Below are positions 40,277 to 64,000 of a stretch of DNA of 64,000 nucleotides, one piece after another. How positions within the stretch are numbered: the stretch's first letter is position 1; every line of letters begins with the position of its first letter. The notes beneath the pieces are model-generated. The model saw only the letters and a program-made list of their open reading frames with translations, had not been told where the DNA came from and ran no database searches. The stretch is from Gammaproteobacteria bacterium (GTDB lineage: Bacteria > Pseudomonadota > Gammaproteobacteria > UBA6429 > Thiohalophilaceae): NCBI GenBank assembly GCA_024641475.1, contig JAHECZ010000004.1, forward strand, positions 36,019-100,018. Direction: 5' to 3'. Both the position numbers and the translations under genes were made by a program.

Positions 40277-42412
40277 TCACTTGGTGACACGGTATATCCG
40301 CATCACCTTTTCCAGATGCCGCAGACGGCGCATGACGCGGGCAAGGTGGACACGATTCTTGACGGTGACAGTAAAGCGTAATTCGGATTGCGAACCATCG
40401 CGTTCGTCGATACTGACGCTTTCAATATTGGATTCGGTTTCGGCAATAACGGCAGCGACCGTGGCCAATACGCCGCGCTGATTTTGCACCAGCAAGCGCA
40501 ATTCCACCGGGAAGTCGCCTTCCACCTTATCTTCCCATTCCACATCGATCCATTTTTCCGGTCGATTGCGGTATTCCGCCACGTTCTTGCAAGTCTGCGA
40601 GTGAATCACAATACCACGGCCGGAACTGACGAACCCAAGGATCGGATCACCGGGAATCGGTCGGCAGCATTTCGCATACGTCACCACCGCACCTTCCGTA
40701 CCCTTGATCGCCAGTGGTCGCGGCCGTTCCTTTTCACCGACCGTACTGCTACGTTCTTCCTCACCGTACATGAAAGCTCGCGCAATCACGATCGACATCT
40801 GATTACCCAGACCAATTTCTTCCAGCAGATTATCGAGACTGGCCAGATTAAATTCCTTGAGCACCTTGGTAATGCGTAATTCGTCGAGTTTGTCCACGTC
40901 AAACTCGTAAGGCTCCAGGCTCTTATTGAGCAGATGTCGCCCCAGACGCACCGCTTCATCCTGTTTGAGATTCTTCAGGTAATTGCGGATATTCGACCGC
41001 GCTTTCACCGTTTGCACGAAATTGAGCCAGGCAGGATTAGGTCGTGCGCCCGGTGAAGTAATGATCTCCACCGTCTGACCATTATGCAACTCCGTACGCA
41101 ATGGCGTCAGGCGTCGATCGATCTTCACGGCGACACAACGGTTACCGACATCGGTATGCACGGCATAAGCAAAATCAATTGCGGTGGCACCACTGGGTAA
41201 TACCCGGATCTCGCCCTTGGGGGTGAACACATAGACTTCATCCGGAAACAAATCGATCTTGACGTTCTCAAGAAACTCCACCGAGTTACCGGCGTGCTGT
41301 TGAATTTCCAACACATTGTGTAACCATTGCCGCGCGCGCGCGGCAGCATTGCTACCAGCCTCATCACCACTCTTGTATAACCAGTGTGCCGCAATACCAC
41401 CCTCGGCAACCTTATGCATGTCTTCGGTGCGGATCTGTACTTCAATCGGCACACCATACGGACTGAACAACACGGTGTGCAATGACTGATAGCCATTGGC
41501 TTTGGGGATCGCTATATAATCCTTGAATTTGCCCGGCACGGGTTTATACAGATTATGCACCGCGCCGAGCACGCGATAACACATGTCGACGCTATCCACG
41601 ATAATTCGAAACGCATACACATCCGTCACTTCATTGAAGGACAAATGTTTGCCACTCATCTTCTGATAGATGCTGTTTAAATGCTTTTCACGGCCTATCA
41701 CCACGCTTTGCAGATTTTCCTGCCGCAGACGTTCGGTGAGCGATTGTTCGATTTTTTTAACAATCTCCTTGCGATTACCGCGCACCTTGCGAATATGATC
41801 TGCCAGCACTCTGGAACGGAGTGGATACAATGCGGCGAACCCAAGATCTTCGAGTTCCAGGCGCACCTGATTCATGCCGAGACGATTGGCAATCGGCGCA
41901 TAAATTTCCAGTGTCTCGTGAGCGATGCGACGGCGTTTCTCCAATGACATCGACGTCAGCGTACGCATATTATGCAGGCGATCGGCAAGCTTGATTAAGA
42001 TGACACGGATATCCTTGGTCATCGCCAGCATCATCTTGCGAAAATTTTCTGCCTGCGCTTCACGGCGGCTGCCGAATTCGATATGGGTAAGTTTGCTGAC
42101 GCCATCAACCAGTTCGGCGACTTCGCTGCCAAACAGACTGACGAGTTGTTCTTTGGCGGTTGGGGTATCTTCAATGACATCGTGGAGGATTGCGGCGATG
42201 ATGCTCTTGTGATCCATGCGCATCTCCACCAGGATGCGCGCTACCGCGAGTGGATGATAGATGTAAGGCTCACCGCTGTTGCGATGCTGACCATCATGCA
42301 TTTCCGCGCCAAATAAATAAGCCCGATAAACCTCAGCGATTTGATCGGGCTCCAGATATTTTTCCAGCATTTCGCATAGATGACTGATGCGAAACGCAGT
42401 AGGGTCATTCAC
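40277..42412 (-). CDS. spoT: bifunctional (p)ppGpp synthetase/hydrolase SpoT
   Basis: 711 aa. Order: N-terminal hydrolase HD domain ([11 protein letters not shown]), synthetase domain ([18 protein letters not shown] and [25 protein letters not shown]), TGS domain ([30 protein letters not shown]), then a zinc-finger-like region (CCRPIPGD) and C-terminal ACT. The intact HD motif and the RelSpo motif indicate both activities. It lies 39 nt downstream of rpoZ, the classic gmk-rpoZ-spoT order. Confidence 0.96.
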   Translation of the reverse strand: [711 protein letters not shown]

Positions 42413-61416: not shown

Positions 61417-61445
61417 CAGTTCATCCCCACGCGTGTGGGGAACAC
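61417..61445 (-). repeat. solitary type I-E-like CRISPR repeat
   Basis: 29 nt. On the minus strand it reads GTGTTCCCCACACG then CGTGGGGATGAACTG, one base from the common I-E repeat ending in GAACCG. Neither side has another repeat at I-E spacing (61 nt). Its translation, VFPTRVGMN, is the well-known artefact of I-E repeats. Confidence 0.82.
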
Positions 61446-61705
61446 GCCATTGAACAGGTACAGCTTGAATTCGGTGAAAATCCAGCTGGCGAATTCAAAG
61501 TCCATGTCATTCTGCGCAAAGGTACCACCATAGCACCCGGCCTTAGAGATGAGACCGACGACCGCCGTTTGCTCAATCCATTGCTTGGGAGTCAGGGTAA
61601 AGCTGTTCAGACCCGCCTGTTTTTAAACCCGTCGAATTCGATGGGTTTAAAATCCGGGTTATTGAGCTGTTCCCAAATTCACAGGAACTCATTCGAACAG
61701 GCGCT
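61446..61705 (-). pseudogene. decayed KilA-N domain protein
   Basis: Minus-strand translation gives WEQLNNPDFKPIEFDGFKN, then after a one-base frameshift near 61617 QAGLNSFTLTPKQWIEQT and GLISKAGCYGGTFAQNDMDF, continuing EFASWIFTEFKLYLFNG. From memory this matches the KilA-N domain proteins (phage and mobile-element DNA-binding domain) almost word for word. There is also a stop (NEFL*IWEQ) before it, and the C-terminus ends exactly at the I-E-like repeat instead of the usual KEFQRLK. No functional gene. Confidence 0.8.
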
Positions 61706-61742
61706 ATGATCTCACGCGTGGGGCAAGCGTAGCGAGTAAGGC

Positions 61743-61780
61743 GTTTCAACGCCTCACCCGTTCAATTGAACGGGTGCAAC
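61743..61780 (-). repeat. degenerate leader-distal terminal repeat
   Basis: Its 5' part reads GTTTCAACGCCT instead of GTTTCAATCCT, one base longer with changes, while the palindrome and CAAC end are intact. Typical for the oldest end of an array. Confidence 0.9.
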
Positions 61781-61957
61781 CTTCCCTGCATTGTCTGGAT
61801 TACCACATTCATCACGTTTCAATCCTCACCCGTTCAATTGAACGGGTGCAACATTTAAAATTGGATGTTGCTGCATCCGTTACACTGTTTCAATCCTCAC
61901 CCGTTCAATTGAACGGGTGCAACTTACCGCCTCATCGTAGTTTGCTTTGTTTTGGAC

Positions 61958-61994
61958 GTTTCAATCCTCACACGTTCAATTGAACGGGTGCAAC
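61958..61994 (-). repeat. repeat 4 with a C-to-A change in the palindrome
   Basis: Reads CACACGTTCAA in the left arm instead of CACCCGTTCAA, breaking one base pair of the stem. It is the only internal repeat with a change that I found, and sits near the old end. Confidence 0.9.
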
Positions 61995-64000
61995 TTGAAT
62001 TGTCAGGTCAAGAGATGCTGATAACAAGTTTCAATCCTCACCCGTTCAATTGAACGGGTGCAACGATATGCGTACTGGCAAGATTCTTTCCTCCCGTATG
62101 TTTCAATCCTCACCCGTTCAATTGAACGGGTGCAACCTTAATCCCGGCGTTAAAGATTCGCTTTCGGCGGTGTTTCAATCCTCACCCGTTCAATTGAACG
62201 GGTGCAACAATCATCACCAGCGGCACGTCCGAATTATTTTTAGTTTCAATCCTCACCCGTTCAATTGAACGGGTGCAACTCCGGGCTAATATCGCCTCTA
62301 CGTCGGTATTATCTGTTTCAATCCTCACCCGTTCAATTGAACGGGTGCAACAATGTTGTTGATAACAGGGTAGCCGGATCGAGAGGTTTCAATCCTCACC
62401 CGTTCAATTGAACGGGTGCAACGATTTGCATTGGTAGCACACGCGCTACTAACGCCAGGTTTCAATCCTCACCCGTTCAATTGAACGGGTGCAACCCATG
62501 GCGCGGATACACTCTAGGTGGTGTGTTGTGTTTCAATCCTCACCCGTTCAATTGAACGGGTGCAACAATCTATTATCTTCTTCTACTACTGAGGAAACAA
62601 GGTTTCAATCCTCACCCGTTCAATTGAACGGGTGCAACTCACAGGGCTGTATTCAGGCCCACGCACTGGCCGGTTTCAATCCTCACCCGTTCAATTGAAC
62701 GGGTGCAACGAGCACGATCATCACGTTTGCAGGTTCAATTCAGGTTTCAATCCTCACCCGTTCAATTGAACGGGTGCAACCCGACAACTCATCATCGGTG
62801 ATCGTGCTACCAAAGTTTCAATCCTCACCCGTTCAATTGAACGGGTGCAACCCACTGTGGCTTGTTTTAGAGCTGGCTCATTGTATTGTTTCAATCCTCA
62901 CCCGTTCAATTGAACGGGTGCAACGTATCCTTGTATCCTTGTTTCCTTAGTAGTAGAAGTTTCAATCCTCACCCGTTCAATTGAACGGGTGCAACAGCTC
63001 ATGATTGCACCTCCTCGATCGAGTTATACGTTTCAATCCTCACCCGTTCAATTGAACGGGTGCAACTTTGGTGTGGATGTACTCAGTGCCATGGCGTTGG
63101 GGTTTCAATCCTCACCCGTTCAATTGAACGGGTGCAACCTGCGGCAACAGTTAAGTGATTGAAATGTAAAGAGTTTCAATCCTCACCCGTTCAATTGAAC
63201 GGGTGCAACACCGCACAGCGGGTTTGACCATTGCTACTGGTTCGTTTCAATCCTCACCCGTTCAATTGAACGGGTGCAACTTTGGCGCACAATCGGATAT
63301 TGAATACTTTGAGTCTGTTTCAATCCTCACCCGTTCAATTGAACGGGTGCAACGTCTACGGTTGAATTGGTAGCGTCAATCCAAAAAGTTTCAATCCTCA
63401 CCCGTTCAATTGAACGGGTGCAACTACAGGAAGGGGTAAACCGCAACAGTTTCAAGAAGTTTCAATCCTCACCCGTTCAATTGAACGGGTGCAACGGTGG
63501 CCATGTTGACTAAACCACGTCCCATACGGGTTTCAATCCTCACCCGTTCAATTGAACGGGTGCAACCACTCGACGGGTTGTATGACCCGTTAGGACATAT
63601 TGTTTCAATCCTCACCCGTTCAATTGAACGGGTGCAACTTTCCTGCAAGTCTTCCATGATCATAGCTTTGGTTGTTTCAATCCTCACCCGTTCAATTGAA
63701 CGGGTGCAACACGAATTTGGGACGAAATGGCGAGACTGATCGCGGTTTCAATCCTCACCCGTTCAATTGAACGGGTGCAACAGCCGGGGATCGGTGATGT
63801 TTTTCGTTTTTTATCAGTTTCAATCCTCACCCGTTCAATTGAACGGGTGCAACGGGGGTAGTTGTATGAACATCCAAGTTAAATCCAGTTTCAATCCTCA
63901 CCCGTTCAATTGAACGGGTGCAACTCAATACCAAAATGCAAAATAGTGATAAAATAGTGTTTCAATCCTCACCCGTTCAATTGAACGGGTGCAACCTGTT

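Follow-up and report, generated by a model that had tools for sequence, protein, structure and literature searches.

A CRISPR array with a palindromic variant of the type I-C-linked 37-nt repeat family in a gammaproteobacterial genome

Background

In type I-C CRISPR-Cas systems, the role of Cas6 is taken by Cas5d, which leaves a 5' handle of 11 nt, as reported for Bacillus halodurans (PMC5965380), and a short stem with a tetraloop is sufficient for recognition (PMC7064716). Repeats of 37 nt are found in type I-C (Dvulg) loci of Moorella, Geobacillus, Clostridia and Dehalococcoidia (L048, L030, L083 and L078) and in CRISPR3 of Geobacter metallireducens (GTAGCGCCCGCCTACATAGGCGGGCGAGGATTGAAAC; PMC2700814). 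The CRISPR array analyzed here shares with the four I-C loci the flanks GTTTCAATCCTC and CAAC, the six outer stem pairs, the 11-nt tag AGGATTGAAAC and a comparable repeat spacing; in contrast, the loops in these loci are not self-complementary, and their cas operon is visible, whereas that of the present array is off the contig. The Geobacter repeat has the identical 11-nt tag and the identical stem layout but differs in the inner stem and the loop; a search of published text for the exact repeat stem of our array turned up this Geobacter relative alone. A genome of the same genus (G006) carries the canonical 32-nt I-C repeat GTCGCGCTCTACACGAGCGCGTGGATTGAAAC, in which a hairpin is likewise followed by a GGATTGAAAC-type tag; this repeat, however, differs from the 37-nt one in length and in its stem, and the present repeat is absent from G006 at up to 3 mismatches.

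Results and discussion

Organization of the array

The window, that is, the entire analyzed stretch of 64,000 nucleotides, corresponds to positions 36019-100018 of contig C50 in a genome assembled into 131 contigs. Its right end (61743-64000) is a CRISPR array with 32 repeats wholly inside, 30 of which are exact copies of the 37-nt sequence GTTTCAATCCTCACCCGTTCAATTGAACGGGTGCAAC, with spacers of 33-36 nt; the array, its coordinates and the repeat count had all been correctly recorded in the first-pass annotation. To the right of the window, the array extends for another ~1.4 kb, up to the end of the contig (C50:101427), and comprises at least 51 full repeats and one cut copy. Among the 51 full repeats, 49 are identical, and the 50 spacers between them are unique and of similar size, with no 14-mer common to any two. 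The array is real, well built and ordinary, and belongs to a known, widespread repeat family.

The leader-distal, oldest end consists of a degenerate 38-nt repeat (61743-61780, minus strand), in which the part corresponding to the crRNA tag is altered and the palindrome is intact, followed by the oldest spacer, spacer 1 (61781-61815, minus strand). Next come another 31 repeats, each of 37 nt, alternating with 30 spacers 33-36 nt in length (61816-63995, with the crRNA on the minus strand) and the beginning of spacer 32 (63996-64000, minus strand), from which the array goes on rightwards. Other than one single-base change, degeneration is confined to the leader-distal copy. The first-pass annotation placed a 22-bp perfect palindrome in every repeat, a slightly too strong wording: 31 of the 32 repeats within the window preserve the palindrome (CACCCGTTCAATTGAACGGGTG), and a single copy (61958-61994, minus strand) has a mismatch in one arm (CACACGTTC).

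About 300 bp to the left of the array, there is a solitary repeat, GTTCATCCCCACGCGTGTGGGGAACACG (61419-61446), which is present in a single copy genome-wide at up to 3 mismatches. We take it to be a type I-E-like repeat, which may be left over from an I-E array. An open frame of ~85-90 codons between this repeat and the array (61440-61712) resembles a gene fragment and has no match in Pfam.

The repeat family

Read in the crRNA direction, the repeat has the order GTTG-CACCCGTTC-AATT-GAACGGGTG-AGGATTGAAAC. The comparison with classified repeat families that had been proposed at the outset yielded a full-length match to the Rfam family CRISPR-DR9 (RF01322): all full repeats in the tested stretch match this 37-nt model on the minus strand, over 37 of its 37 positions. 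The standard copies score 43.5 bits (E = 2e-8), which is 1.5 bits short of the gathering score of 45, and differ from the family in the A/T-rich inner stem and the AATT loop; the degenerate leader-distal copy scores 28.4 bits.

A scan of the whole collection with a degenerate pattern, constrained chiefly at the flanks and at the six outer pairs of the stem, identified 69 stretches that share this repeat architecture, from many phyla, including Firmicutes, Chloroflexi, Armatimonadetes, Nitrospirae and Proteobacteria. The repeat itself, at up to 3 mismatches, is absent from 39 other members of the bacterial family and from 368 other sampled genomes of the class, and the repeat pattern had no match in IMG/VR. 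The array adds a fully palindromic variant, with a firm orientation, to a widespread, I-C-linked family of 37-nt repeats.

The repeat is predicted to fold into a 9-bp stem capped by a 4-nt loop (-16.0 kcal/mol). The first-pass annotation considered this stem to be at the long end, but it is no peculiarity, given that the relatives adopt this fold more often than any other. At the three inner positions of the stem, left free in the search pattern, pairing persists in 41, 40 and 35 of the 48 distinct related repeats; it is kept through several different pair types, and therefore it is the RNA structure that is conserved.

Association with type I-C cas genes

All 69 stretches were oriented like the window and queried with the seven Cas proteins encoded at locus L083. 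Genes for Cas proteins were detected in 30 of these, in each case on the right-hand side of the array and on the minus strand, that is, in the crRNA direction; the queries are I-C proteins, such that cas genes of other types would escape detection. In the order from the array, cas2 (mostly ~150-260 bp off the last repeat) is followed by cas1, cas4, cas7, cas8, cas5 and, often, cas3. Many of the 39 stretches without detected cas genes stop near the right end of the array. For L083 and for the tested proteins of L078 and L084, NCBIfam and PADLOC identify Cas1c, Cas4, Cas7/Csd2, Cas8c/Csd1, Cas5c and Cas3c, the components of type I-C, with the scores of the tested Cas1c, Cas7/Csd2, Cas8c/Csd1 and Cas5c proteins well above the cut-offs. 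The link of the repeat family to I-C operons is thus seen in all 30 cas-bearing related loci through matches to the I-C queries, and in three loci through HMM calls.

Because the cas genes lie on the right-hand side in all 30 informative relatives, a leader on this side is expected as well, in line with the first-pass argument from the degenerate left repeat. The placement of the leader, the newest spacers and the cas genes on this side, as the first-pass annotation had it, is strongly supported by these homologous loci together with the minus-strand Rfam match; the contig of the host ends inside the array, so that the leader and the cas genes would lie outside the assembly. Searches of the host bin (estimated completeness of 97.4%) for Cas1, Cas2 and Cas8c gave no match. 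Given this result and the end of the contig within the array, the type I-C assignment is borrowed from the relatives, and the array itself is probably of this subtype. Matches to the Cas3 core in the genome are all below the cut-off, and we read them as ordinary helicases. The Cas10 palm also produced sub-cut-off matches alone (~20 bits) in the bin, which is incomplete at the array locus. Other members of the bacterial family possess cas loci, and their Cas1 loci were considered as the source of the missing operon and rejected: the adjoining arrays bear different repeats, including the usual 32-nt I-C repeat in the same-genus genome. The antiporter gene in the left flank of the array was not found in the sister genome in a synteny comparison.

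Predicted crRNA processing

In the crRNA strand, the stem is followed by exactly 11 nt (AGGATTGAAAC), equal to the length of the Cas5d handle. The predicted crRNA tag is accordingly this 11-nt sequence; the 8-nt tag ATTGAAAC favored in the first-pass annotation is probably wrong, considering that the relatives are of type I-C and that the Cas5d handle is 11 nt long (PMC5965380). In the proposed mechanism, transcription would start from a leader at the right and proceed along the minus strand, and the precursor RNA is predicted to form, at each repeat, a hairpin of 9 bp closed by an AAUU loop. This structure would be recognized by Cas5c/Cas5d and cleaved at the 3' base, so that every 33-36-nt spacer is preceded by the handle AGGAUUGAAAC; loaded with the crRNA, a Cascade of Cas5c, Cas8c and Cas7c would locate invading DNA for Cas3. 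Transcription, processing and an intact cas operon in the host organism are inferred, whereas the array, its repeat family, the predicted hairpin, the signals of orientation and the linkage of the relatives to I-C genes are directly observed.

Alternative explanations

Taken jointly, the most plausible scenario, in which we have high although not complete confidence, is a type I-C-like array of a known repeat family, with the crRNA on the minus strand, the leader on the right, processing by Cas5d, and the palindrome as a by-product. The array could also be an orphan or in decay, having lost its cas operon and with it spacer acquisition and interference, as might be suggested by the lack of Cas1, Cas2 and Cas8c matches in a bin that is estimated to be nearly complete. 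We find this unlikely: the identity of nearly all full repeats, with degeneration limited, save for one base, to the leader-distal copy, suggests recent activity, and, as the contig breaks exactly within the array, an absent operon is to be expected from assembly or binning failure. We attribute the missing operon primarily to the contig break and to binning, with its loss as a less likely cause. The ending ATTGAAAC is common to many type I and type III repeats, and for this reason the array might serve a type III or another type I system, with Cas6 cutting to leave the 8-nt tag. This is very improbable in view of the 30 homologous cas-bearing loci, all of which matched the I-C queries (these being I-C proteins only, other types would be missed), and of the Cas10 palm matches in the bin that fall under the family cut-off.

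The palindrome invites a further alternative, namely, that it is selected as DNA, in the form of a cruciform or a protein-binding site, or for pairing between repeat RNAs. A perfect 22-bp palindrome that occurs 31 times at ~71-bp spacing is not chance; it is kept in 50 of the 51 full copies, and when two strands of the repeat RNA are folded together, a 22-bp duplex is predicted at -43.2 kcal/mol, compared to -16.0 kcal/mol for the single hairpin. However, copies of any CRISPR repeat are identical, each being duplicated from its neighbor, and self-complementary loops are absent from all 48 related repeats, in which the longest perfect palindromes span 2-8 bp. Furthermore, for a 9-bp stem whose loop has 4 nt, the chance of a full palindrome is 1 in 16; the loop happens to be AATT, and hence the perfect palindrome needs no further explanation. 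Selection on the palindrome thus appears most improbable, and a cruciform function, raised in the first-pass annotation, was rejected, with nothing to indicate its relevance and the DNA palindrome not kept by the relatives. Instead, the palindrome looks like a chance by-product of a self-complementary AATT loop that was copied by ordinary repeat duplication. More generally, what is conserved in repeat hairpins is the RNA structure, and full palindromy at the DNA level may merely reflect a self-complementary tetraloop. With a repeat core that reads the same on either strand, a cleavable hairpin might form in transcripts of both, or repeat RNAs might pair in trans, with altered processing or spacer orientation in this lineage as the outcome; we attach very little probability to this idea. 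Outside the array, no perfect palindrome in the window exceeds 18 bp, the length of TGCCGCGCGCGCGCGGCA at 41328-41345.

Spacers

No protospacers of the 50 spacers were found in phages and plasmids, and exact cores of eight spacers, including the 21-nt stretch common to spacers 12 and 17, had no match in IMG/VR; for an environmental genome, missing targets in such collections say little. When 30 spacers were compared with the genome itself and with those of the bacterial family, the array itself alone was matched. Spacers 12 (62567-62601) and 17 (62925-62958) share a 21-nt stretch, which lies on opposite strands in the two and contains one mismatch (TTCTACTACTRAGGAAACAAG); therefore, both likely derive from the same or related invaders.
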